Both the position numbers and the translations under genes were made by a program. 64,000 nucleotides of DNA from IMG/VR virus record IMGVR_UViG_3300042922_000982, positions 93,407 through 157,406 of that record; one strand, given 5' to 3'. The notes below the pieces were generated by a model. That model saw nothing but the letters and a program-made list of their open reading frames with translations. It was not told where the DNA came from and did not search any database. Position 1 is the stretch's first letter. Every line of letters starts with the position of its first letter. The stretch is from a virus. Below are positions 181 through 59,658 of this stretch, piece after piece.

Positions 181-3100
181 CTACTCCAGATCCGGCTCGG
201 CGTGCCCGGCGGTACGGCCGGGCGCGCGATCGCTGCGTTTCTTGCCCATGAACTGGGCCTTCACGCGAGCGGGAGCCGCCTCGGCACCTTCCACCCGGCC
301 GAAGCGCGCCGCCTGGCGCACCTCGCCTGCCAGCTTCTGCTTGCGGGCAACCGCGATCCCCTTCTTCTCGTCCAGGGTCGAGACCCCGGCCGTGTGCGAG
401 CGGGTGATGACGCGGTGCACGATCGCCTTCGGCACCGAGCCGGTGAGGCGGGCGTGACGCCCGTAGAGCTGCTCCAGGTTGGCCTGGTTGTAGTCGCCGT
501 CCAGGTCGATCAGGTGCGTGCCGCGACCCAGGTTGACACCCGAGGCCGCGATGTTCGAGCTGACGACCAGGATCTTGTGCGCCTCGTTCTCGTTGAAGCT
601 CTTGACCGTATCGTTGCGCGAGGCGCTGATGCGGGTGTCGTGCTTCTCGACAGGCGACGTCTCCTCGTCCTCCGCGCCCGGCTCGGGCGTGAAGTCCTCG
701 TCGGTGCCGCCCGCCTCCTCGTGCGCCGCCTTCAGCTCGTCTTGCGACGCGCGGATGACGCCGTACTTGTAGCCCAGGCGATCGGCATCGGCGCCGCCCG
801 CCATCTTCTGCACGTCGGCATGGGCCCGCTTGAGGCGTTCGTACGTGTTGGACGTCTCGGGGAAGGTGCTGAGGCGATCGCGGGTGTCCGCGTGCGCCCG
901 CGCCACCGCCTTGAGGTTGCGGTGCTCGACCTCCTCCTCGTGCGTCAGACCGCCCGCCGCCGCCTTGGCGGACAGGTGGTTGTGGCGCTCGTAGGCGTGC
1001 TTCGTGTTGTCGTGGGTGTCTTGCAGGCTGGCCTTGAGGGCCTGGTGCTTGGTCGCCTCTTCGTGCATCTGGCGCTCGATCGGCTCCAGGCTGCTCTCGA
1101 GGTGGCGCTTGGCGTTGGCGCCCGAGTACTCGCCCATCACGCGCTTGGCCACCCCTTCGAGGTGGTTCTGGCCGTTGACGCGCTTGGAGGCGAGGATGAT
1201 CTTGGCGTGGGGGTCGTTGCGCATGATCTCGCGCACCTTGTCCTCCACGGCCTTGATCTTGTGAGCGTGAAGCTCCTCCTCCGAGTGGGCGATCGCCGCC
1301 AGGGCGCCCTTGCCGATCTTGCCGTCCTTGCCGCCGCCCTCGATCGCGCTCATGGCGCCAGAGCTGTGAAGCTCCTCGTGGTGGCGTTGGATCATGGCGT
1401 CGTGCTCGGGGCCGAGATCGACGTGCATGTCCTGCAACTGGGCCGACGGGGGACGCATCTCGGCGTCGAGGTCCTCGTTGGTGGAGGTCACCATGTAGCG
1501 GCTGAGCTTGTTACCCAGCTCGGCCTTCTTCTCCTCGTTGATGCCGATCAGGTGGCCGGTCGACTCGTCCTTGATGCCGTAGTTCTTGATGAACTGCTTC
1601 TCGGTGCCGAGATCGTGCTGGCCACGGTGCGTCATGTTGACGAGGTTGAGCTGCTCGCCCAGGTGGTTCTGGATCGGCGTGCCCGTGAGCGCCATGACGC
1701 CCTTGGCCCGGCCGTGCTGCGACGCCTTCAAGCCCGCGTCCTCGTGGTCGAGGCCGTGGATGTAGGCGTCCACCACCCGGCGCTGGCCGCCCTGCGTGCC
1801 CGCGCGGTTGAGCGTGTGCGCCTCGTCGACGATCACGCCGTCGAAGCCCTGCTCTTTCAGGTGCTGGGCGATCGGCTTGCCGCCCACCTTCTTGTTGCCG
1901 TGCACCGGGGCGCCGTCCTCGCCGAACAGCTCGTGCGCCTTGATGTTGTGCTCCGCCTCCAGGGCCGCCTGGACCTCGGGCCGGTGCAGATCATCGTGCG
2001 TGAGCCCCTTGTCGCGCATCACGTCCGCGAGCTTGACCGCCCCGATGCGGGTGGCCTTGTTCGCGAGCATGGAGCGCGTGACGACGTGGTACTTCGCGTT
2101 CGGGCTGATGTCCTTGCCGAACGAGATCTCGCCGCCCTCGTGGTGATCACCGGCGCCGGGCAGGTGCGGCTTCATGCCGAAGAAGGCCGCCGCGTCGTCT
2201 TTCCAGGCTTTCGCCTGGGTGGTGGAGGGCACCACGACCAGGTGCTTCTGCGCCGCGTCCGGGTTCTTCACCTTGGCAAGCTCGGCCGCCGCGAGCGCGG
2301 AGCTGGTCTTGCCGTTGCCGACGCCGAGCGCGCTGATGGTGCGCTGCCCGCCGTTGACGTAGTGGTGAATCATCTTCTGCTGGTGCTTGGTGAACCCGAT
2401 CTGACGGCCGTTGGTGTCGCCGTTGATGTGGCTCAACAGGCCAGGGATCGCCGTGGTCGCCTTGCCCTCGGGGCCGTAGACGTGAGAGCCCAGCTCGTCG
2501 AAGCCGTTGATCTGGTCGGCTGCGAGGGCCGCTTTTTGGCGGACCTGCTGCAAGCGCGGCAGGATGTCGCCGCGCAGCTTGACGCCGCCGAGCAGGTGCG
2601 TGATGCGGTCGACCGCCTCCATGGGCACGACCAGCCCGCGCTTGCCGCCCTTGGCGTTGGCCAGCTGGCCGTAGCCTTCCTCTTTCAGCATGCCGAGCAC
2701 CTGGGCGATCGCGTGCGCCTTGCGGATCGCCTGCGATTGCTCGGTGGTGGTGCCGAGGTTGGCGTCTTCCAGCCCGCCGAGGCCGTGCTTCTCGCCCAGC
2801 TCCTTGATGATGGCCTGCTCTTGCGCCTGGGTGGGCGTGCCCTTCCAGAACATCTTGTGCTTGACCATCGCGTTGGCCAGCTCGATCAGCTTGCCCTCGG
2901 GATCGGTGGGGTCCGACGGCAGGCTCAGAATGGCGCGCGGCTCGGGCGCGTCGATCTCGGGCAGGCCGTCCTTGACGCGCTGCTTGTTCGCCTTCAGGCG
3001 CGCCTTGCGCTCGTCGGCGGACTCGGGCTGCTCCATCTGGATGGTGGGCACGTCGGCGTGGGCCTTGCGGTCCGCGTCGGCGAGCTTGGCGTCGACGATC

Positions 3101-6100
3101 GCCTTCTCCTCGGGCGTGTGGGCCTCGAAGTAGGCGTGGGCCTTCTCGCGGCTCCAGTTGCCCAGGGCGGTCATCTTGTCCTGCTTGGCGTCGTAGCCCG
3201 CGAAGAGCTGCTTGCCGTTGTGCTCCACCGGCCCCTGGTGCTGGGCCAGGCCGCCGGTCTCGCCGATGATCTCGTGCAGGCGCTTGCCCGCCAGGTTGCC
3301 CTGGGTGATCACGGGCGACCCCTTGTGGTCGTACGTGACATGCATGAGCCAGTGGCTGTTGCCGTTGGAGAGGTGCACCACCGAGCTGGTGCCCGCCAGC
3401 GCGCGCAGCTTGCGGTTGAGGTCGTCGGCGGTGTGGATCACGGTGTCGCCGAGCAAGCCGCCCCAGTACTGATCCTTCACGCGGCCGTCGGCGCCGATGT
3501 GAATGTCGATGTCGTGGCCGTCGTGCGTGCGCGCGGTGAACGTGCGCGTGCCGTCGTCTTGCTGGGCGCCTTCCTTGAAGTCGACCGGGGCGTCCTCTGC
3601 CGCCGCCTTCGCCTTCTCGCCCTTGGTGGCCGTCTTGCGCACCTTGCCGTCGGCGACGGTGCGCTTGTGGCCCGCGATCTGCTTGGCGACGTGCTCGCTC
3701 AGGTCGTTGCCCGAGCTGTTCTGAATGGCCGCGTCGAGCTCCTTGTTGAAGTCGACCGCCAGGTTCTTGTTGTCGAGCCCCAGGTGGCGGTACAGCGCGG
3801 CGGCCGGGATGGTCCCGTCCTTCTTGCTGCCGGGCACCTGCGTCCCGTGCTCCGTCTCCGCGAACAGCTCGGTCTTGTGACCCTTCTTGCTCTTGGCGTC
3901 GTAGCTCTGGCGGACGTGAACGTGGACCGTCTTGCCCTCGTGCTGGATGGTGAACTTGTGCTCTTTCGCCGCCTTCTCGTCATCCGCGTGGCTGTGATCG
4001 CCGAAGTCGCCGCCGCCCGACAGGTGCGCGTGAAGCTCGGAGATGTGCTTGCCCACGAAGGCCGAGGGACCGGCGGCAATCTGGCCGCCCTTGGTGATGT
4101 ACACGGCGCGCCCGTGCATGGTGATCCAGCGCCCGCCGGGGTACTTCGAGAGCATCTCGGCGCCGATCCCCTTGAGGATCAGGTCGTCGAAGGGCTCGTC
4201 AACGCCCGCGACCAGCGCGTCGGCCACCCGGTAGGTCAGGCTGCCGGTGTAGCTCTTGGCGATCGCCTCGTCCACCTGGGACAGAGAACCCGGCCCGGCA
4301 AACGCCGCCATCTGGAAGATGAGGCCGTTGGCGCGGTCGACCACGGTCCAGACGCGATCGTCGCCGCCCAGGCTCTTGACCAGGCCGGTGTCGGCCAGCC
4401 ACATCTTCACCGTGCGCTGCGGCTCGGCGTCGAGGGGCCGATCCTCGAACACGAAGGCCATCAAGCGGCCCTCGGCGGTGTAGGGCATCAGCCCCTTGGT
4501 CAGCTCGGTGCCGTGGAAGTCCTGGAGGTCGCCCGCCAGCTGGAGGTGCTGCTTGGCGTTCATGAGCATCTTGCGGCCGGTGCCGGGGTGGTAGCCCAGG
4601 CGCTCGAACACGTCCGACACCGCGATCCAGCTCTTCTTGCCGCCCACCACGTCCTTGGTGGACTTGGGGGTGGTCAGCATGGCCATGTAGTCGCCCTTCC
4701 ACTTGAGGAGGTTGAGCGCCAGCTGGTACTTCTGGCCGTTCGGGTTGACCTTCGAGGGCTTGACGCCGCCGTTGACCAGCATGCGATTGACGATCATGTG
4801 ATCGTTAATGGCCACGGGCTCGCGATCGGCGGCTTGCAGGAGCGCCTTGTACTCCTTGCCCTTGCGCTGATCCTTGGGCACCTTGCGCACCGCGCTCTTG
4901 GCCGCCTGGATCTCGGCGTTCTGCGCGTTCAGGTCGTCCTTGGCGCGCTTGAGGCCCTCGGCCATGGCCGGAACGTGCTCGTGCTTGAGCATGTCCTTGA
5001 GCGCCTTGCCGCCGTCCTCGAGGCCCGCCGACACGACCACGGCGTAGCGCGCGCGGGGGTCGGGAATTTGCGCGATCGCCGCGCCCATGAGGGCCTGCAA
5101 CCGCTCCGAGTGATCGGCTTGCGCCACCTGGGCGAGCGGGTCGACGCCCTTGCCCTCGACCAGATCGCCGAGCGTGCCCGCTTGATCATCGTCGCCCGCC
5201 GGGGCGTCGAGGTGGGCGGCCACGACCTCGTGGGCCAGGCGCGACAGGCGCTTGACCTCGGCCGTTTCGACCTGCATGGCGTGAGCCAGCTCGGTGTCGG
5301 TGGCCGGGCGGCCAAGCTCCGTCTCCAGGGCGCCGCGCACGCGGCTCATCTGGGTCAGGCTGGTGTTGTCGGCCTGCGACACGCGAATGGGGCTGACGCC
5401 CATGATGTCGCGCCACTTGCGGCTCAACTCCTGATCGACGGTGCCCGCCACCTGATCGTGCAGGCTGGTGATGCGCTCGGTGGGGTCGTGGCGACCGATC
5501 ACCTGCCACGCGCTCATGCGGGCGTGCTGCGCCATGTCGGCGAAGAACGAATTGCTCGCCGGGCGGCCCTTCTCGTCGACGGAGGCCGTCATGCCGAGCT
5601 TGCGCATCCAGTTACCGGCGATCGCCACGATCTTCGGCTCCATGTTGCGCAGGGTCGCTTCTTTCACCCGGCGCTCCAGCTCCGGGGTGTAGTCCTTGTA
5701 GCCCTTGAGCTTCTCGCGGATCCGCTGCTTCGCCTCGTCGCCGTCGGCGAGGAAGAGCTGGCCTTCGAGCTTCTTCTTCTCGGCGAACTTGCCGAGGTGC
5801 TCCTCGAACACCGCCTGCTTCTGCACGCGGGCCGCCGCGCCCTCGGCGCTGTCCTTCTTGAGGCCCGGAATGTCGAACAGGGGGGCGGGCTTGCCGAGCG
5901 TCACCTTGGCCGGGGCCGCCGCCGTGTTCACCTTCGCGCGCACGTCGGGCTCGGCCCAGGCAAGCGAGCCCTGCGGGCCCACGCCGGGGAGCGTCTTGGG
6001 GGTCTTGGGCTTGGCGGCGGCCTTCGTCGCCTTCGTTTTCTTGCCGCCCGCCTCGCCGTGGGTGCCCACGGTCAGGACCGGCTGCTTGGCGTGCGCCTTG

Positions 6101-6567
6101 ACCTTGCCGCCCACATGGACGCCGGTCTTGCCCGCCTTGGCGGCAGCCTTGGTGGCCGGGGCGATCGCCGCCGCCTTCTTGGGCGATTGCGCCTTGAGGG
6201 CCGTGCTGGCCTTGCCCGTGGTGGGCTTGGTCGGCGCCTTGGCGACGGCCTTGGCCTTCACCTTGGCCTTCGGCGCGGCCACGGTGGCCGCCTTGCCCGC
6301 CTTCTTCGCGGGCTGGGCGCCCACGGGCTTGGCCTTGGGCACCGCCGCGCTGGCCTTGCCCTTGGTGCCCTTGACGGCCGCCTTGGTGGCCTTGGGGGCC
6401 GCGCCCGCTTTCGCGTCCTTCTTCTTGAGCTTCGCTTCCTCCAGAAGCTTGGCCGCGAGCGCGCTCACGACCTTTTTCTTGTTGACGTTGCGGGTGGTCT
6501 CGCGCACCTGGTAGACCGTGCCCGTTTTGGTGTGGCTCTGGTGAGCCTTCACCCTTTCGGTACTCAT
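181..6567 (-). CDS. giant virion-type protein: N-terminal tag, sigma-70-like segment, SNF2/DEAH helicase
   Basis: 2128 residues. The start ATG at 6567 lies 9 nt after AGGAGG. Residues 6-42 are a tag (VKAHQSHTKTG...VNKKKV) shared with the next two genes upstream. Residues about 45-230 are low-complexity Ala/Lys/Pro. Residues about 405-510 read like sigma-70 region 3 running into region 4: ELGRPATDTELAHAM, then GDDDQAGTLGDLVEG, then a region-4-like helix. The SF2 helicase lies in the C-terminal third: Walker A GVGNGKTSS near 1416, DEAH (VIVDEAHTLNRAG) near 1580, motif III LTGTPIQN, and motif VI QLYGRHARLTG near 2034. SNF2-family ATPases translocate on duplex DNA. Gene position and tag suggest an ejected virion protein, similar in logic to P1 DarB, but that is inference. 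Confidence 0.85.
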   Translation of the reverse strand: MSTERVKAHQSHTKTGTVYQVRETTRNVNKKKVVSALAAKLLEEAKLKKKDAKAGAAPKATKAAVKGTKGKASAAVPKAKPVGAQPAKKAGKAATVAAPKAKVKAKAVAKAPTKPTTGKASTALKAQSPKKAAAIAPATKAAAKAGKTGVHVGGKVKAHAKQPVLTVGTHGEAGGKKTKATKAAAKPKTPKTLPGVGPQGSLAWAEPDVRAKVNTAAAPAKVTLGKPAPLFDIPGLKKDSAEGAAARVQKQAVFEEHLGKFAEKKKLEGQLFLADGDEAKQRIREKLKGYKDYTPELERRVKEATLRNMEPKIVAIAGNWMRKLGMTASVDEKGRPASNSFFADMAQHARMSAWQVIGRHDPTERITSLHDQVAGTVDQELSRKWRDIMGVSPIRVSQADNTSLTQMSRVRGALETELGRPATDTELAHAMQVETAEVKRLSRLAHEVVAAHLDAPAGDDDQAGTLGDLVEGKGVDPLAQVAQADHSERLQALMGAAIAQIPDPRARYAVVVSAGLEDGGKALKDMLKHEHVPAMAEGLKRAKDDLNAQNAEIQAAKSAVRKVPKDQRKGKEYKALLQAADREPVAINDHMIVNRMLVNGGVKPSKVNPNGQKYQLALNLLKWKGDYMAMLTTPKSTKDVVGGKKSWIAVSDVFERLGYHPGTGRKMLMNAKQHLQLAGDLQDFHGTELTKGLMPYTAEGRLMAFVFEDRPLDAEPQRTVKMWLADTGLVKSLGGDDRVWTVVDRANGLIFQMAAFAGPGSLSQVDEAIAKSYTGSLTYRVADALVAGVDEPFDDLILKGIGAEMLSKYPGGRWITMHGRAVYITKGGQIAAGPSAFVGKHISELHAHLSGGGDFGDHSHADDEKAAKEHKFTIQHEGKTVHVHVRQSYDAKSKKGHKTELFAETEHGTQVPGSKKDGTIPAAALYRHLGLDNKNLAVDFNKELDAAIQNSSGNDLSEHVAKQIAGHKRTVADGKVRKTATKGEKAKAAAEDAPVDFKEGAQQDDGTRTFTARTHDGHDIDIHIGADGRVKDQYWGGLLGDTVIHTADDLNRKLRALAGTSSVVHLSNGNSHWLMHVTYDHKGSPVITQGNLAGKRLHEIIGETGGLAQHQGPVEHNGKQLFAGYDAKQDKMTALGNWSREKAHAYFEAHTPEEKAIVDAKLADADRKAHADVPTIQMEQPESADERKARLKANKQRVKDGLPEIDAPEPRAILSLPSDPTDPEGKLIELANAMVKHKMFWKGTPTQAQEQAIIKELGEKHGLGGLEDANLGTTTEQSQAIRKAHAIAQVLGMLKEEGYGQLANAKGGKRGLVVPMEAVDRITHLLGGVKLRGDILPRLQQVRQKAALAADQINGFDELGSHVYGPEGKATTAIPGLLSHINGDTNGRQIGFTKHQQKMIHHYVNGGQRTISALGVGNGKTSSALAAAELAKVKNPDAAQKHLVVVPSTTQAKAWKDDAAAFFGMKPHLPGAGDHHEGGEISFGKDISPNAKYHVVTRSMLANKATRIGAVKLADVMRDKGLTHDDLHRPEVQAALEAEHNIKAHELFGEDGAPVHGNKKVGGKPIAQHLKEQGFDGVIVDEAHTLNRAGTQGGQRRVVDAYIHGLDHEDAGLKASQHGRAKGVMALTGTPIQNHLGEQLNLVNMTHRGQHDLGTEKQFIKNYGIKDESTGHLIGINEEKKAELGNKLSRYMVTSTNEDLDAEMRPPSAQLQDMHVDLGPEHDAMIQRHHEELHSSGAMSAIEGGGKDGKIGKGALAAIAHSEEELHAHKIKAVEDKVREIMRNDPHAKIILASKRVNGQNHLEGVAKRVMGEYSGANAKRHLESSLEPIERQMHEEATKHQALKASLQDTHDNTKHAYERHNHLSAKAAAGGLTHEEEVEHRNLKAVARAHADTRDRLSTFPETSNTYERLKRAHADVQKMAGGADADRLGYKYGVIRASQDELKAAHEEAGGTDEDFTPEPGAEDEETSPVEKHDTRISASRNDTVKSFNENEAHKILVVSSNIAASGVNLGRGTHLIDLDGDYNQANLEQLYGRHARLTGSVPKAIVHRVITRSHTAGVSTLDEKKGIAVARKQKLAGEVRQAARFGRVEGAEAAPARVKAQFMGKKRSDRAPGRTAGHAEPDLE

Positions 6568-6658
6568 ACGCTCCATCCTCCTATTGGCATGGGATTGGCG
6601 TTCCGAGCGTAGCACGGGCAAGCAGCCGAAAAGGCACCATTTGACACCTTAGACGCAA

Positions 6659-10818: not shown

Positions 10819-12663
10819 CTACTTGCCCCCCTTCGCGGCCCGGATGGCCGCCTTCAACTCGCTCCACACCCGGTCCCACTCGGGCCCCGTCACCCTGGCA
10901 TGCGCCTTGTAGGACTCCATGTAGTGCGCCAAATCGACAAGCTCGTCGCGATCGCCCGCCATGTGGATGGCCAGCTCGAATTGGCGCGGGCTCTTCAGGT
11001 GCGCCGCGCCCCCCGTGACGAACGCGGGGGCATCCCCGAGCGGATCCGGCTTGGGCGGGGTGCGCCGGGCATGCCAATCGCTCACCGCGCCGCGCAGGGC
11101 CTCGTACTGCTTATGGACGTGCGCGTGGGCCTCGGAGCCGGGCCTTAGCGTGCGCAGGTGAGTGAGCGTCTGCATGGCGGCGGCGTGCAGGTGATCGGGG
11201 TGCTTGAGCCCCACCGCCTGCGGCATGGTCATGCGCGGGGCGTGCGCGGTGCCCTCCTCGAGATCCGCCTCGGCGGGCTTGCCCTTCTTGGCCGGTTTCG
11301 GCTTGGGTTTCGGCTTGGCGATCGCCTTCTCCATGGCCCACAGGGCGCCCTTGGCGATCGCGTCCATGCTCGGCGGCGCGGGCTCGGGCGCGATGGTCGC
11401 GACCAGGGCGGTGAGCGCCCCTAGCTCGTAGGTGTAGGGATTGGCGCCCGGCACGCGGCGCGCGGCCAGGCTCTTGACGATCTTGCCCACGGGTTTGGCC
11501 CTCCAGTTGTCGGGTTCTTTGGCCGCCACCGGGCTGGTGTGCGGGTAGCAGCGGCAGCGGGGATGCAGGGGTAGCAAATTGAGGATCTGGAGCAGGGAGT
11601 ACTTGCGCCCCTCGTGCGGCGCGCAGTGCTTGCAGACCTTGTCGTCGCCCATGGTGCGCAAGTAGACGTATTTATAGCCGTGCGCGCGCAGCACGTCGGC
11701 CACGCCGTGCGCGTAGCCCGCCGCCACCATGCACTCGGCGATCAGCTTGCTGCGGTGCATGCTATAGAGCTTGGAGAGCAGCGTGTCGACGTCGGCGGCC
11801 TCCCCGCGCGCGGCGATCATGGCCAGTTGGGTCTCGGTGGTGGCGCGGATGCGCCGCACGTTGCGCCGGGCGATCGCCTCCAGGCGCTTCTTGGTGGCGC
11901 CCCTGAACCCGCGCGTGCGATCGGGCGGCAGCTTGCCCCCTTTCGCGTCGTTGAGGATGGCGCGCGCGGCCTCGGCGCGGCCGAGCTTGGCGGCGCGCTC
12001 CAGGGCGTGCATGGTGAGGTCCGCGCCCTCCGCGTCGGAGCCCTTGTAGCGCGGCCGGGCCAAGTCCGAGAGCACCGGCCGGGCCTTGGGGTGCCCCTTG
12101 GGGTAGGGGGTGCCGATGGCCTTGGACAGCGTGAGGCCCTTCTCGCTCGCGATCGCCCGGACGTGCGCTTCGAGCCACGGCGCGAAGGCGTCTGCGAGCA
12201 CCCGCTCGACGCGCAGGCGCTCGTCGGTGAGGTCCAGCTCCTGCATGAGCCCGCGCGCCTTCTGCCCGACGAGCGCGCGGATGATCTCGCGGGTGGGCGG
12301 CATCAGCTTGGCCGGTAGCTGATCGGGGTAGACCCAGCGGGCCTCGTCGCTCTCGCGCTCGGCGATGCGGAGGGCGCCCTCGGGGTGGCGCATCAGGAAC
12401 GCCTTACCCACGCCGCCGGGGAAGGTGTAGTCCTGCGAGATGCCGGTATACGTGGCCGTGAGCCCGGTTTCCTCGAGTAGCTCGCGGTGCGCGCCCGCCA
12501 AAAACGACTCGCCGGGCTCCTTGCCGCCGCCGGGCAGGTTCCAGTGATCGCCGAACAACTCCTCGGTGGCGGGGCGGTGAAGCAGCAGCACGCGGCCCTG
12601 CGGGTCGACGACAACCGCGCGGGTGCCGGGCTTGAATTTCCAGGCGTCAGAAGCTTCGGGCAT
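10819..12663 (-). CDS. Nudix hydrolase fused to MuF-type head morphogenesis protein
   Basis: 614 residues. The start ATG at 12663 is chosen over the one at 12669 because GAGG lies 6 nt upstream. Residues 5-150 are a Nudix domain with an intact box near 42-64 (GGGKEPGE, then HRELLEETGL), fitting Gx5Ex7REUxEExGU, which hydrolyses nucleoside diphosphate-X compounds. Residues about 250-375 match MuF minor head proteins and end with the Cys/His cluster VCKHCAPHEG...LHPRCRC. The C-terminal 125 residues are shared with the next gene. MuF proteins sit near the portal and are often ejected, so the Nudix domain may be delivered or act in head assembly. Confidence 0.9.
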   Translation of the reverse strand: MPEASDAWKFKPGTRAVVVDPQGRVLLLHRPATEELFGDHWNLPGGGKEPGESFLAGAHRELLEETGLTATYTGISQDYTFPGGVGKAFLMRHPEGALRIAERESDEARWVYPDQLPAKLMPPTREIIRALVGQKARGLMQELDLTDERLRVERVLADAFAPWLEAHVRAIASEKGLTLSKAIGTPYPKGHPKARPVLSDLARPRYKGSDAEGADLTMHALERAAKLGRAEAARAILNDAKGGKLPPDRTRGFRGATKKRLEAIARRNVRRIRATTETQLAMIAARGEAADVDTLLSKLYSMHRSKLIAECMVAAGYAHGVADVLRAHGYKYVYLRTMGDDKVCKHCAPHEGRKYSLLQILNLLPLHPRCRCYPHTSPVAAKEPDNWRAKPVGKIVKSLAARRVPGANPYTYELGALTALVATIAPEPAPPSMDAIAKGALWAMEKAIAKPKPKPKPAKKGKPAEADLEEGTAHAPRMTMPQAVGLKHPDHLHAAAMQTLTHLRTLRPGSEAHAHVHKQYEALRGAVSDWHARRTPPKPDPLGDAPAFVTGGAAHLKSPRQFELAIHMAGDRDELVDLAHYMESYKAHARVTGPEWDRVWSELKAAIRAAKGGK

Positions 12664-12697
12664 GGGCATCCTCGGGGAAACGGGCGATCGGACCTCC

Positions 12698-12703
12698 ATT
12701 GTA
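12698..12703 (-). promoter_or_regulatory. -10-like TACAAT before the Nudix-MuF gene
   Basis: The minus strand reads GCCGCTACAATGG about 35 nt before the start codon and just after a strong terminator hairpin. The same CGCTACAATG is found at 19380-19385, again between a terminator and a gene, and AGCTACAATG at 46275-46280. No clear -35 is seen. Confidence 0.5.
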
Positions 12704-12725
12704 GCGGCAGATGCGTCCGAAAGGG

Positions 12726-12764
12726 CCGAAACCGCCAGGCCGCTTGTGGGCCTGGCGGTTTCGG
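12726..12764 (-). terminator. 16-bp hairpin terminator
   Basis: A perfect 16-bp stem (CCGAAACCGCCAGGCC and its complement) with a 7-nt loop lies after the stop of the 144-aa gene. On the minus strand it is followed by CCCTTTCGG. It separates the upstream operon from the Nudix-MuF promoter. Confidence 0.75.
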
Positions 12765-12785
12765 GATAACGGGCGATCGCCGCAC

Positions 12786-13220
12786 TTACGCCTGGGCGGG
12801 CGATTCCGGGGCGGGGTCGCCCGCGATAGCGAGCAGGAGCTTGCGGTAGCCGTCGTCCTGGGCGATCGCCAGGTTGTCGCGCTCGCCGCTGCCGGGCTGC
12901 GCCAGCACATGGGACGTGGCGATGGCGAACCCGAGCAGGACGTGCATCCGCTGGGGGAGCGTCTCCGGATTCGGCGGCATCGCGATCGCCTCGTACTCGG
13001 CGGCCAACGCGGCCAGGGCCGGTTTGTCGAGCGCGAGGGTCATCTGCAAGGGCAGGAGCGCCGCCTTGCACTCGGCGACCACCTCCGCTCGGTGCGACGC
13101 CGGGAAGCGGTCCAGGGCGGTGAATAGCGAGCGGTAGCCCGCGCGCAGAGCGTCGAGGGCCGTAGCCATGGCCGCAGCGGCGGCGATCGTGGCCGGATCG
13201 TTGGCGTCAAGCGTCTCCAT
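12786..13220 (-). CDS. hypothetical alpha-helical protein
   Basis: 144 residues. The start overlaps the previous stop as TAATG, so translation is probably coupled to the 332-aa gene. The protein is Ala-rich and predicted helical (AAAAMATALDALRAGYRSL, LQMTLALDKPALAALAAEY) without Cys or catalytic motifs. Its place next to head genes suggests an assembly or virion role; unknown. Confidence 0.75.
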   Translation of the reverse strand: METLDANDPATIAAAAAMATALDALRAGYRSLFTALDRFPASHRAEVVAECKAALLPLQMTLALDKPALAALAAEYEAIAMPPNPETLPQRMHVLLGFAIATSHVLAQPGSGERDNLAIAQDDGYRKLLLAIAGDPAPESPAQA

Positions 13221-53369: not shown

Positions 53370-54377
53370 CTACTGGGGGTCGGTGAGGGCGGCGAACAGG
53401 CTAACAGCGGTGGGCTTGTTGGCGGCTGGGTCGATGCAATGGGGGCTGAACCAGATGCGCTCGCGCTTGGCGTTCTCCTTGCCCGCGCCGTCGCCGAGGT
53501 TGCCGTAGCCGCCCTGGGTCTTCCAGGGGATCTCGATCCAGGTGTCGGGCATCACGTAGTCGCCTTCATAGCCGCACAGCGCGATCCTGAGCTTGGGGTT
53601 GTCGCCGTTGGCGATGCACCACTCGATCGCCTCGCGGGCCGGATCCTCGGTGTCGTTGTTGTAGACGCCCGCCGCGCGCCCGGCGAGCAGGTACGGCGGG
53701 TCGAGAAACACGGCCGTCACGCCGAGATCCGTGCTGATCGACTCGCCCATGAGCCGCTTCCAATCGCCGCAGCTGACGCGCACCTCGCGCAGGCGATCGC
53801 CGAGCAATTGCATCATTTCGCGCAGGTAAGCCGATCGCTCGGCCTCGAAGCCGGGCGTCCCGGCGGGCACGTTCGGCACCTTGCGGAACACGCCCCGGCC
53901 GGGGCCCATGTGCGGGATTTGCGGGTGCACGCCCTTGATGCCCGCCTCCGCGTCGAGGCCGTACTTGCCCTCGCCGTCACACCAGCCGTTGCCGAGCCAG
54001 AGGCACATGCCCCACAGCCACCAACCGGCCACCTGGGCGTCGTAGCGGTTCGGGTTGTCACTGAGCCCCTCGATGCGCTTGGCGCCCTCGTTGACCAGCC
54101 AGTGGTGGCGGGCAAGCAGGTCCTGCTCGGATATGATCCAATCGGCGTGGGCGGCCACGGCCATCGGGTCGCTCTTGACGGCGCGCCAGAAGTTGACGAG
54201 GAACCCGTCGATGTCGTTAATCATCTCCTTGCCGGGCAGGTGCGGCCGGGCGAGCAGCATGGCGCCCGAGCCGAAGAAGGGCTCGACGTAGACCGCCGGG
54301 TTGCCGAAGCGGGCCCACACAAGCTCGGCGACGCGGCGCTTGCCGCCGAAGTAGGGGTAGGGGGCCTTCAGGCTCAT
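53370..54377 (-). CDS. D12-class DNA adenine methyltransferase 2
   Basis: 335 residues. ATG at 54377 overlaps thyX by 4 nt. YPYFGGKRRVAELVWARFG, VEPFFGSGAMLLARP, AVFLDPPYLLAG are the SAM and catalytic motifs. Shares DGFLVNFWRAVKSDP, WWLWGMCLWLGNGWC and the C-terminal NAKRERIWFSPHC with the paralogue 51536-52819. Two related enzymes may have different specificities. Confidence 0.9.
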   Translation of the reverse strand: MSLKAPYPYFGGKRRVAELVWARFGNPAVYVEPFFGSGAMLLARPHLPGKEMINDIDGFLVNFWRAVKSDPMAVAAHADWIISEQDLLARHHWLVNEGAKRIEGLSDNPNRYDAQVAGWWLWGMCLWLGNGWCDGEGKYGLDAEAGIKGVHPQIPHMGPGRGVFRKVPNVPAGTPGFEAERSAYLREMMQLLGDRLREVRVSCGDWKRLMGESISTDLGVTAVFLDPPYLLAGRAAGVYNNDTEDPAREAIEWCIANGDNPKLRIALCGYEGDYVMPDTWIEIPWKTQGGYGNLGDGAGKENAKRERIWFSPHCIDPAANKPTAVSLFAALTDPQ

Positions 54378-56154: not shown

Positions 56155-56617
56155 TACCGGCCTCCCGAAGCTCCCGGTGCCGCTCTCCGTGGTGCTTTGG
56201 GCAAAGCCACAACACGTCGAGGTGTCGGGTGTAATCGTCGTGATGGGCCTGCACTTTATCCTCTACGCCACAGCGTTCACACGGCTGCTTTACAAGGGCT
56301 CCCGATCGAATCGCCAGCGTCACCGCTTGGTGCGCCGCACGTTTCTCGGGGTGGCTCGCTATCCAGCGAGCCGAGTAATCCCGGTGCGCGACCCTGTACC
56401 GGGGCGCGCGCTGCCGGGCATTCGCCTGGCGCTCAGGGGAGAGCCCCCGCTGGCGGTCGTAAGCCTTTACGCGCTCCAGGTTGTCGGCGCGGTGCTTGTT
56501 CGCGTCGCCCCGCTTGCAGTCCTTGCAAATGCTGAGGTGACCGTCGGCCATCTGCTTGTGGGTGTAGTAGTCGGATAACGGCTTGTCAACCTTGCAACGC
56601 TTACACTGTTTCGACAT
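56138..56617 (-). CDS. HNH endonuclease with N-terminal ribbon
   Basis: 159 residues. N-terminal ribbon CKRCKVDKPLSDYYTHKQM...CKDCKRGD, a basic helical middle (HRADNLERVKAYDRQRGLSP), and a C-terminal HNH: CERCGVEDKVQAHHDDYTRH then LDVLWLCPKHHGERHRE. Its ATG overlaps the SSB stop (TGATG). A homing-type enzyme inserted beside replication genes is a fair reading. Confidence 0.88.
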   Translation of the reverse strand: MSKQCKRCKVDKPLSDYYTHKQMADGHLSICKDCKRGDANKHRADNLERVKAYDRQRGLSPERQANARQRAPRYRVAHRDYSARWIASHPEKRAAHQAVTLAIRSGALVKQPCERCGVEDKVQAHHDDYTRHLDVLWLCPKHHGERHRELREAGSAHPE

Positions 56618-57498
56618 CAAAAAGGAATTTCTTCGTCGAGGTCGGCCACCTGCTTCGAGCCGGTGCCGCCCTTGGGCTCAAGGAACCGGGGGTCGGGGGT
56701 GTAGGCACCCGAGCCCGGCTCGGCGCGGCCTTCCTCGAGGGCCCGCTCGTAGTCACCGTAGCCGTCGTCGGGGATGTCCCAGGCGTCGTTGGCGCTCATG
56801 TCGCCGCCGCCCTGCGAGTTTCCGCCGCCACCCGGCGCGAAGGACCAGTCGAAGGTCTTGACGTAGGTGCGCGGGTACTTCTTGCCGTCGACGTCCTCTT
56901 TTTCGTAGGTTTCGAGCTTGCCGATGATGATCACGCCCTTGCCGCTCTTGAGGTACTCGGCGGCCGACTCGGCGCGCTTGCCGTAGAGCACCACGTCGGT
57001 CCAGACGGCCACCTCGGCGCCCTTGCCGTCGTTGGCGGTCGGATCCCAGCGATCGGTGGCCACCGAGAAGTAGGTCCGGGCGCTGCCGGTCTCGCCGTTG
57101 AACTTGATTTCGACCCGCTTGCCGACGCGGCCGACCAGCCGGACCTCGTTCTCGTTGTCGGCGCCGCCCGCGCGCGGCGTGTTGGCGCGCACCACCAGCA
57201 TCGAGCGGTTGTGCTTCTGGCCGTTGGCGTCTTGCAGGACGTACTTCACCACGTCCAGCTCGCCGTTGACCATGACGCGATCGCCCTCCTTGAGGGCCTG
57301 CGCCTTCATTTGGGCGCTCTCCTTGCCGTAGTAGTACACATACACCGGGTTCTTGACCCACTCGCCGCCCTCGGGGTGGCCGGGATCCTTGCGGAAATCG
57401 GGGCTGTTCACCAGGACGCGGGTCACGGCGCCCCGCGCCTTCGGGGTGCCGACGACCTTGCCGACGAGCGTGACTGAATTGAGGCTGTTACGGCCCAT
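56617..57498 (-). CDS. ssb: single-stranded DNA-binding protein with two OB folds
   Basis: 293 residues. Two successive OB folds are visible: residues 5-105 (SLNSVTLVGKVVGTPKARG, YVYYYGKESAQMKAQALKEG) and 116-225 (NEVRLVGRVGKRVEIKFNGE, WTDVVLYGKRAESAAEYLKS). The C-terminus is Gly-rich and ends DLDEEIPF, the acidic tip that in SSBs recruits partners. Coats unwound DNA in replication. Two OB folds in one chain is uncommon among bacterial-type SSBs. Confidence 0.85.
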   Translation of the reverse strand: MGRNSLNSVTLVGKVVGTPKARGAVTRVLVNSPDFRKDPGHPEGGEWVKNPVYVYYYGKESAQMKAQALKEGDRVMVNGELDVVKYVLQDANGQKHNRSMLVVRANTPRAGGADNENEVRLVGRVGKRVEIKFNGETGSARTYFSVATDRWDPTANDGKGAEVAVWTDVVLYGKRAESAAEYLKSGKGVIIIGKLETYEKEDVDGKKYPRTYVKTFDWSFAPGGGGNSQGGGDMSANDAWDIPDDGYGDYERALEEGRAEPGSGAYTPDPRFLEPKGGTGSKQVADLDEEIPF

Positions 57499-57508
57499 GA
57501 GGGTCTCC

Positions 57509-58432
57509 TTAATCGATCTCGGGGCCCCACGAGCTACGCTCGCGGAGCCGCATGTCGGGGCCGTTGAACGGAACCCGGCGGTAGCTGGGGGGCTGCAAGC
57601 GCGACAGGAACCGGCCGACCATCTCGGCCGACGCCTCCGCGCTGTTTTCGCGGCCGAGCACCGTCAGCAGGTGCTGCTGGATGTAGGCCACGTCAAAGTT
57701 GCTCGTGATGAAGGTCGATCGCTCGGACAAGTAGCGCACGTCCACCAGGCGCATGAACTCGCGCAGGCTGGCGGCGGTGTCTTTTTCGCCGACCAGCTCG
57801 TCGAGGACCAGGATGTCCGCTGCGGCGATCGCATCCAAGATGGCCACCCGGCGCTCGATGTTGCACAGCCGGTCGTAAAGCCCTTTGATCTGGGTCCAGA
57901 CGGCGTAGTAGCCGCGATCCCTGGCCTCGTTCACGATCGCCGCCGTGATCATGGTCTTGGCCGTGCCGCGCTTGCCGTGCAGCAGGGCGCCGTAGCCCTC
58001 GGCGATCGCCACATCCAGGTTGTCCACGTACCAGCGGGCGACCGCCAGGCCCTTCACCGAGCCCACGTAGTCGGCCTCGGGGTCATCCTCGGTGCCCGGC
58101 GCCGGGACCTTCACGTCGGACAGCTTGACGCCCGAGAACTTCTTGGGCACCGGCCAGGCCCCATGCTTGGCCTCAAGCCGTCCCAACGAGGCCAGGCGGG
58201 CCTCCAGGCTGGTCGTGGCGTTGAAGGCGACCACCTGGTGCTCGCAGGCCACCCAGACCCGCGTCGGCTTGCCCGCCAGGTCGATCACCTGGGAGGTAGG
58301 CTCCGAGCCGCACTCCGGGCAATCGGCGGGCTTGGGTAGGTTGATCATCTTCACATCCCTCAACGCGCTCGGATCGGCGCCAGCAGCCTCTTGCAGGACC
58401 GCCTTGGGCAAAATGATGGGGTATTCCGTCAT
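57509..58432 (-). CDS. replicative helicase loader (DnaC/IstB-like ATPase)
   Basis: 307 residues; starts at the last base of the initiator stop. N-terminal zinc-like segment ADCPECGSEPTSQV...VACEH at 36-60. AAA+ core: Walker A LLHGKRGTAKTM near 150, Walker B DILVLDELVGEKD near 207, sensor 1 STFITSNFD near 243. Loaders of this kind deliver the replicative helicase to origins, and this gene pairs with the initiator 58432-59658. No DnaB-type helicase is seen in the window, so the host helicase may be recruited. Confidence 0.88.
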   Translation of the reverse strand: MTEYPIILPKAVLQEAAGADPSALRDVKMINLPKPADCPECGSEPTSQVIDLAGKPTRVWVACEHQVVAFNATTSLEARLASLGRLEAKHGAWPVPKKFSGVKLSDVKVPAPGTEDDPEADYVGSVKGLAVARWYVDNLDVAIAEGYGALLHGKRGTAKTMITAAIVNEARDRGYYAVWTQIKGLYDRLCNIERRVAILDAIAAADILVLDELVGEKDTAASLREFMRLVDVRYLSERSTFITSNFDVAYIQQHLLTVLGRENSAEASAEMVGRFLSRLQPPSYRRVPFNGPDMRLRERSSWGPEID

Positions 58433-59658
58433 TACAGGTACTCCGAGAAGCTCGTGGCCCCGGTGGGCTTGGGTTGCATTTCAAGGGCCGCGTCGGCCCC
58501 CACGTACCCCTTGAACACGGCTCCGAAGTAGCTGGCGGGAGCCTGTACCGTTTGCGTCTTGCCGGTGGCCTTGTAGCGGGCCAGGTAGCCCATGGCCTGC
58601 TCGCAGGTGATGCCGAGGTCGAGCACCATCTGGCGCGTTGCGTTGACGGCCCACTCGGGCGGCGTGAGCCCCCAGGGCTTCATCGCGTAGCCACCGATCG
58701 CCACCGTCAGAGCCCCCAGGCCAGCGAGCGGCGCTGGCCGCTCGGCGATCGGCTGCGAATCGGCGACCATCCTCCGGGCCACCCCGATCGGCACATGGGC
58801 CGGAACCTCGTCGAGCGATCCAAACCCCGAAGCGAAAGTCTCATCGCCGCCGCCGCTCACATGCGCGGGCTCGCGCGTGACGACGACGTCGTTCCTACTT
58901 CCTACTTCCTGATTCCTACTTCCTACTTCCTGCCGGATCTTTTTCATGAGTGGCTCACTGATTTCCTCGCTGGACTCAGTGATTTGGTTCGCGGATTCAC
59001 TGATTCGAGCGGCCGGATTCAGTGAGCCGGTAAATTCAGTGAGTCCATCAGTGATGGGGTTCGTGAGCGCGTCCGTGAACGGCTCACTGAAGCCTCCGTG
59101 ATCACTGTGCTGAGGGCTCAGTGATCCCCCGTGAAGCGCCGCATGCAAAAGCCGCTCGTGGCTCACGGAGGGGTGGCACATGTAGAGGGCCGCGAACCGA
59201 TCGATCATCTCCTTGGTCGCCTTCTGATCGCCCTTCCACCCGTGAAGGTCGAGCGCGTCGAGCGTGATGCGCAGGCGATCGATAAACGGCTTCCCCGCCT
59301 GGAACATGGCCCGGCATCCGGGGCAATTCTCGAGGGTCGGGTGCGGCAGCTTGGAGCGGGTCGGCCGGTTCGGCTTCTGGTACTTGTACCAGGTCGGCGA
59401 GTGGTAGTAGCTCGCGTCCTTGTCGGTGTAGACATGGATGCGCCCCAGCTCGACCAGGTGGTTGAAGTAGGGCCGCACGTTGACCTCGTCGTCGTGCGGG
59501 AAGATGAACCCGGCCAGCTCGCGCATGATGGCGCGACCGCGACCGAAGTCGTCGGCGAAGCACCAGGTCCCCTGGAAGAACAGGCGCTCCCAGGGATCGA
59601 GCAGCTTGATCAAGGGATCCGAGAAAAACTCGGAGTGGAGCGTGCGCATGCGAGCCAT
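58432..59658 (-). CDS. replication initiator (lambda O / phage replisome organiser type)
   Basis: 408 residues. N-terminal winged-helix region typical of phage replication proteins: MRTLHSEFFSDPLIKLLDPW, ERLFFQGTWCFADDFGRGR, IMRELAGFIFPHDDEV. CPGCRAMF near 112 may bind zinc. Residues about 178-234 are a Ser/Thr/Glu-rich linker encoded by an iteron cluster (see separate entry). The C-terminal domain (MVLDLGITCEQAMGYLARY) likely contacts the loader. The arrangement mirrors lambda O with its internal origin. Confidence 0.85.
   Translation of the reverse strand: MARMRTLHSEFFSDPLIKLLDPWERLFFQGTWCFADDFGRGRAIMRELAGFIFPHDDEVNVRPYFNHLVELGRIHVYTDKDASYYHSPTWYKYQKPNRPTRSKLPHPTLENCPGCRAMFQAGKPFIDRLRITLDALDLHGWKGDQKATKEMIDRFAALYMCHPSVSHERLLHAALHGGSLSPQHSDHGGFSEPFTDALTNPITDGLTEFTGSLNPAARISESANQITESSEEISEPLMKKIRQEVGSRNQEVGSRNDVVVTREPAHVSGGGDETFASGFGSLDEVPAHVPIGVARRMVADSQPIAERPAPLAGLGALTVAIGGYAMKPWGLTPPEWAVNATRQMVLDLGITCEQAMGYLARYKATGKTQTVQAPASYFGAVFKGYVGADAALEMQPKPTGATSFSEYL
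58892..58932. repeat. 20-bp direct repeat inside the initiator gene
   Basis: TTCCTACTTCCTACTTCCTG occurs at 58892-58911 and 58913-58932, with internal TTCCTAC sub-repeats. It encodes the protein repeat EVGSRNQEVGSRN. It directly adjoins the iteron cluster and may be an unwinding or auxiliary element. Confidence 0.7.
58955..59124. other. candidate phage replication origin: TCACTGA iterons
   Basis: Eight exact copies of TCACTGA or its reverse complement TCAGTGA in 170 bp (starting 58955, 58976, 58997, 59019, 59036, 59048, 59084, 59118) plus one near copy TCACTGT (59102). Both orientations are present. They lie in the linker-coding part of the initiator gene, as oriLambda lies within gene O. 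Origin function is inferred. Confidence 0.75.

Follow-up and report, generated by a model that had tools for sequence, protein, structure and literature searches.

Eight dyads inside a phage initiator gene: a proposed in-gene replication origin and a protein residue that covaries with its sites

The window studied here comprises the final 64,000 bases of an IMG/VR virus record that is 157,406 bases long. It holds eight exact copies of the near-palindrome TCACTGA/TCAGTGA within the gene of a phage replication initiator, and the cluster is very probably the replication origin of this phage, or its main initiator-binding part, lying inside the gene of the very protein that uses it. Binding of the dyads would be followed by opening of a neighboring tract and by helicase loading. 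The array is in excess of what codon choice accounts for, it adjoins DNA of low stability, its layout recurs in homologous genes and residue 97 of the encoded protein covaries with the dyad across relatives. It is also reasonably likely, at a lower level of confidence, that a very large family of phage initiators carries the origin in its own gene, and that an HQ-x-x-[N/D]-[R/K/H]-P arm specifies, through its residue 97, which third base the half-site has, Asn going with TCA..TGA and Asp with TCG..CGA. In-gene origins are already known from lambda O and SPP1 gp38; the new part is the one-residue code.

The site array and the adjoining tract

The exact sites start at 58955, 58976, 58997, 59019, 59036, 59048, 59084 and 59118 and span 170 bp (Table 1). 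A count of the 7-mer over the rest of the window, as suggested by the sequence-only reading that first singled out the cluster, gave one further copy, at 54058, and the remainder of the 157-kb record holds two more. These three sites are all isolated and none is upstream of the initiator gene. A second TCACTGA array is absent from the record, which may be incomplete. Per 200 bp, TCACTGA is the joint densest 7-mer of the window, equal to CGATCGC, the two words being present in 9 and 287 copies, respectively.

Shuffled windows contained a mean of 2.95 sites per 64 kb, and none of 100 reached 9. When the gene's own codons were shuffled with the protein kept, the mean was 1.58 sites and the maximum 6 (n=20,000), eight never being reached; with codon usage taken from three neighboring genes, the mean was 0.04 and the maximum 3. 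The earlier claim that eight exact sites in 170 bp are beyond chance is upheld by these nulls. Six of the sites occupy one codon phase and two another, and the peptides that they encode differ (ISEP, ITES, ISES, SLNP, LTEF, ITDG, FSEP and SLSP), which shows that the repeat exists at the level of the DNA and not of the protein. Four further sites in the gene, each with one mismatch, had been missed; one of their forms, TCACGGA, also recurs as a site variant among relatives.

The sequence-only reading had the cluster flanked by a 20-bp direct repeat. Both copies of TTCCTACTTCCTACTTCCTG are exact (58892-58911 and 58913-58932), but the flanking was loosely put, as they stand on one side only, 3′ of the cluster in the gene. 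The repeat is better read as a piece of a purine-rich tandem that is also seen in relatives. The purine fraction reaches 0.85 across the 40 nt from gene nt 728, and the GC content of the tract is 44%, against 69% for the window. None of the 63,800 positions in the window begins a less stable 200-bp duplex than 58892, and for 60-bp duplexes stability is lowest at 58891 (0 of 63,940 positions lower). Under either codon null, 0 of 1000 shuffles of the gene produced a 200-bp stretch that was equally unstable. The case for melting is strong in the window only: in family genes the least stable 60 bp mostly lie at nt 180-300, outside the linker. The GC skew within the window does not change at the array.

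Table 1. Features of the proposed origin region and its neighbors, in window positions
Feature	Position	Strand	Basis or proposed role
Array of eight exact TCACTGA/TCAGTGA dyads	58955..59124 (gene nt 535-704)		Proposed initiator-binding sites
Near-match sites, one mismatch: TCCGTGA (59072 and 59095), TCACTGT (59102), TCACGGA (59163)	59072..59169		Inside initiator gene
7-bp tandem rich in purine (coding strand, GGAAGTA-type), with two 20-bp copies	58892..58932	-	Proposed melting/loading tract
200-bp duplex of lowest stability in the window	58892..59091		Proposed DNA unwinding element and part of array
Initiator gene (408 aa): N-terminal winged-helix-like domain (1-110), then a long linker and a helical C-terminal part	58432..59658	-	PHROG matches, AlphaFold
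Asn97 codon	59368..59370	-	Residue covarying in relatives with third base of half-site
DnaC-like helicase loader, 307 aa	57509..58432	-	phrog_50 E 4.6e-23; IstB PF01695 E 3.8e-6
Single-strand DNA-binding protein	56617..57498	-	PF00436 E 6.4e-28, two stretches

The initiator and its gene neighborhood

Residues 1-108 of the initiator match PHROG 2149 (E 5.8e-20), 16167 (6.3e-16) and 1408 (1.5e-15), all described as “replication initiation protein”, and its N-terminal domain thus belongs by profile with these phage initiators. The clade-specific in-gene dyads that were found here to mark this group are represented in the window by the array, and the contrast between family and control genes is given below. 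A Pfam match for the window initiator was absent at E<=1. In the AlphaFold model, residues 1-110 form helices and a two-stranded wing at a pLDDT of 89-97, and the pLDDT is below 50 at 183-214 and 252-277, which make up much of the linker encoded by the array region. A fold search of the PDB returned generic winged-helix matches only, none at E<=0.001; in the BFVD, phage replisome organizers and Mx8 p19 are among the fold matches. The ORF of the loader overlaps the end of the initiator ORF by one base, and a RusA-like resolvase and ThyX are encoded nearby.

Repeats within the genes of relatives

As queries against viral contigs, the full-length initiator and loader returned no relatives, and alignment of N-terminal domains was therefore used. 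To the window gene this added 18 genes of annotated phages and 80 found on viral contigs, 99 in all, of which 88 were kept after six duplicates and five short genes were left out. The downstream ORFs served as controls (n=73, with 15 of the 88 initiators having no such ORF). The same N-terminal domain is found in the actinophage family that the records label “RepA-like replication initiator”, the actinophage hits sharing about 28-37% identity with the window.

Many relatives carry a short, clade-specific dyad spaced at ~10-11 bp in gene nt 130-230 and again in nt 335-470, after which a purine tract or tandem 7/8-mers usually come next. Unlike many of them, the window gene has no second block of sites in its winged-helix region. 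The total count of 7-mer pairs under codon shuffling proved a poor statistic, since p<=0.01 was passed by 15 of 73 controls as well as by 66 of 88 initiators, and for this reason the maximum count is quoted: for the most frequent 7-mer, p<=0.01 over codon shuffles was reached by 26 of 88 initiators and 0 of 73 downstream ORFs. Peaks of repeat distance at 7-8, 10-11 and 21-22 bp were seen in the 88 initiators and not in the 73 controls. At least three TCACTGA-type sites were present in 12/88 initiators and 0/73 controls, and a 40-nt stretch of at least 85% purine or pyrimidine in 51/88 and 0/73, respectively. In the 28 strongest such stretches it is always the coding strand that carries the purines, and their starts fall within nt 352-460. 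In 29 of the 32 TCA-type genes, including that of the window, the 60 nt after the array are richer in purine than the 60 nt before it. The layout closest to that of the window was found in a Chthonomonadaceae MAG (L342), where, at gene nt 347-389, a TCA dyad occurs four times at 12-bp spacing ahead of a GSRKLGSRNQEV tract that resembles the window tract. This is a lead on the relatives of the window phage and not proof of its host.

Scans that start from the DNA also lead to the family. Triplets of dyads were searched in the viral contig collection, with gaps of 3-5 for TCGCGA and 4-16 for TCACTGA and for its permuted form TGACTCA. Among the matches listed, 31 of 119 TCACTGA loci and 92 of 120 TCGCGA loci fall inside an ORF of the initiator family, and 79 of the 92 TCGCGA genes have two separate clusters; for TGACTCA the count is 1 of 120. 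The remaining 88 TCACTGA loci among those listed mostly look like simple tandem arrays or peptide repeats, and lie in unrelated ORFs or outside any ORF. Two loci counted as TCACTGA (L131 and L134) have SLIPD-type repeats together with His97 and probably represent another repeat type. The one TGACTCA triplet in a family ORF among the matches listed (L493) may be a genuine further dyad type.

Residue 97 and the dyad

Column 97 of the alignment is Asn in the window, where it lies within YQKPNRP. Among the genes selected by protein, TCA-type arrays go with Asn in 15 cases and Ser in one (n=16), and TCG-type arrays with Asp in 18, Glu in one and His in one (n=20), the other 52 genes having no dyad assignment. 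The sets selected by DNA agree, with Asn in 29/31 TCACTGA loci and Asp in 88/92 TCGCGA loci among the matches listed; one Asn seen among the TCGCGA genes (L261) appears to be a misalignment. Over 53 representatives, taken as one per dyad type at 60% identity, residue 97 is the aligned column best associated with the dyad (0.77 bits), the next being residue 66 (0.52). As residue 97 tracks the dyad, the initiator protein is tied to the sites within its gene. The earlier suggestion that the protein probably binds its own coding sequence is supported by this covariation.

A count that makes no use of motif labels showed an excess of TCA dyads in 16/22 Asn97 genes and of TCG dyads in 0/22, and among Asp97 genes an excess of TCG dyads in 13/37 and of TCA dyads in 0/37. 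Since the link was first found by inspection, its only fresh test is a set drawn from bacterial genomes and one phage-plasmid, of which 67 of 81 members were kept (five short or N-containing and nine redundant members dropped). Here the Asn97 genes had a TCA excess in 10/22 and a TCG excess in 0/22, and the Asp97 genes a TCG excess in 8/27 and a TCA excess in 1/27. Asn contacts adenine and Asp contacts cytosine in protein-DNA recognition, and the pairing of Asn with TCA and Asp with TCG fits this chemistry. In the fresh set, the TCA excess is mostly absent from Asn97 genes that lack the following Arg-Pro; the entire arm may therefore be of importance.

There are exceptions: in L358 and L347 (Thermodesulfobacterium), Asp97 is accompanied by TCAGATGA repeats ~10 bp apart, a wider dyad. 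Ser97 follows no single rule, being found with TCT in L092, with TCACGGA in L051 and with TCGCGA in three scan loci. The excess of TCT..AGA dyads in L092 (z 4.8) is possibly a third letter of the residue code. For His97, Glu97 and Gln97 members, neither the label-free count nor the fresh set resolved a dyad rule. A tree of 98 columns and 112 rows requires 12 dyad changes and 11 residue changes; on its supported branches there are only three independent switches of dyad type, of which 2.9/3 on average are concordant, a number below the resolution of a sign test. Phylogenetic support for a one-residue code is thin so far.

Comparison with known systems

The sequence-only reading equated the arrangement with the lambda origin within O. 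Much of this stands. Lambda O has this order at almost the same place in the gene as in the family: the iterons lie mid-gene (nt 349-433), a purine peak of 0.80 begins at nt 428 and low-stability DNA is found directly 3′. The replication partner is the next gene, giving the order O/ori/P. The window likewise has an initiator gene with centrally placed repeats, at which binding is predicted, and an easily melted, purine-rich tract beside them; the earlier description of sites in the linker of an initiator gene with a loader encoded next fits this order, now with a DnaC-like match for the loader and an easily melted tract that adjoins. The equation fails on the type of repeat and on the protein family. 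Lambda has 18-bp direct iterons, whereas the window has 7-bp near-palindromes in both orientations, and lambda O falls in PHROGs 277 and 345, in contrast to 2149, 16167 and 1408. The window initiator has no O-like PHROG at E<=1, and the match of lambda O to phrog_2149 is no better than E 0.13. The arrangement would work like the lambda origin in O, but the window initiator, judged by sequence, is not of the O family.

Accounts of lambda/P22-type phages and their Stx-phage relatives place iterons and an AT-rich tract centrally within O and describe this tract as crucial for unwinding (PMC7466680). In SPP1, as outlined in PMC6316719, the gene of the origin-binding protein gp38 contains repeats and an AT-rich unwinding element (oriL), and the loader gp39 acts with it. 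By that described layout, SPP1 resembles the window in having origin repeats inside the initiator gene and a loader partner, and differs in its second origin, oriR, a second array being absent from the 157-kb window record, which may be incomplete.

Initiators of RepA_N plasmids are also winged-helix proteins with an origin or sites within the rep gene, and on this general background they resemble the window initiator. The Pfam RepA_N domain, however, is absent from the window protein (E<=1) and from all 44 aligned members (E<=0.01). Family members also lie on records labeled plasmid, for example Streptomonospora phiM2 (L421) and Pseudonocardia pPoc2 (L361), and some members may thus replicate prophages as plasmids. 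Some RepA proteins of mycobacteriophages replicate plasmids, with an ori supposed to lie in or next to repA, according to Wetzel et al. 2020 (PMC7157519).

Proposed mechanism and alternative explanations

In the proposed mechanism, the winged-helix domain and the HQ-x-x-N-R-P arm of the initiator would bind the TCACTGA dyads, with Asn97 reading the A of TCA. The bound array would strain the adjacent low-stability, purine-rich tract at 58892-58932 and cause it to open, and the DnaC-like loader from the next gene would then bring the replicative helicase. We infer from this arrangement that the array acts as an origin, and that physical binding, melting, recruitment of the loader and the start of synthesis would take place there. 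For the first step, covariation of protein and site across relatives supports binding of the in-gene dyads; tract opening and helicase loading are modeled on lambda and SPP1, as described in PMC7466680 and PMC6316719.

An intragenic operator, at which the initiator would block transcription of its own gene and of the loader while replication starts elsewhere, is an unlikely alternative. The sites, being near-palindromic, resemble operators, and the best fold matches include winged-helix repressors, none of them significant. The covariation of residue 97 backs binding to in-gene sites equally under both readings. What tells against the operator is that the gene has no exact site upstream of it and the other three on the record are isolated, that the array adjoins the least stable DNA of the window, and that a purine-rich stretch follows the array in 29/32 TCA-type genes, as in lambda ori, which would be unexpected for an operator. 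The array may also serve in both roles at once.

Control at the level of RNA, in which the inverted TCACTGA/TCAGTGA copies form hairpins that govern translation or decay of the mRNA, is improbable. Although the segment folds better than dinucleotide shuffles do (z -2.92), inverted dyads alone yield such folding; moreover, the family spacing of 10-11 and 21-22 bp is helical, which is a property of DNA, and the base of the dyad is tracked by a single protein residue. Least probable of all, and already disfavored, is an array of functionless chance or low-complexity coding repeats, which most of the 88 non-family loci among the 119 listed do look like, but which is opposed here by two reading phases with different peptides, a site count that codon shuffles never reached and the strong contrast of family and controls.

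The preferred reading, an origin within the initiator gene, has consequences beyond this phage, as the origin is unknown for most phages outside a few models. If true, protein and origin share one DNA segment and can change together, and the sequence of the origin could be predicted from the protein and vice versa. Origins might then be read from the initiator gene in many actinophages, proteobacterial phages, prophages and phage-plasmids, the initiators of which are often annotated “hypothetical protein”. Covariation between a residue and a single base of its site would also offer a cheap and direct test of protein-DNA specificity and of the co-evolution of initiator and origin. Neither the in-gene dyads of this family nor the residue code was found described in open-licence PMC papers, an absence that is weak evidence.

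Other features of the window

Two further minus-strand ORFs were noted in the window. One, at 181-6621, is unusually long (2146 aa) and has a helicase match (phrog_62, E 4.4e-27). The other, of 750 aa at 10819-13071, matches a NUDIX hydrolase (phrog_1198) and portal/minor head proteins in separate parts, and may encode a fused head protein.
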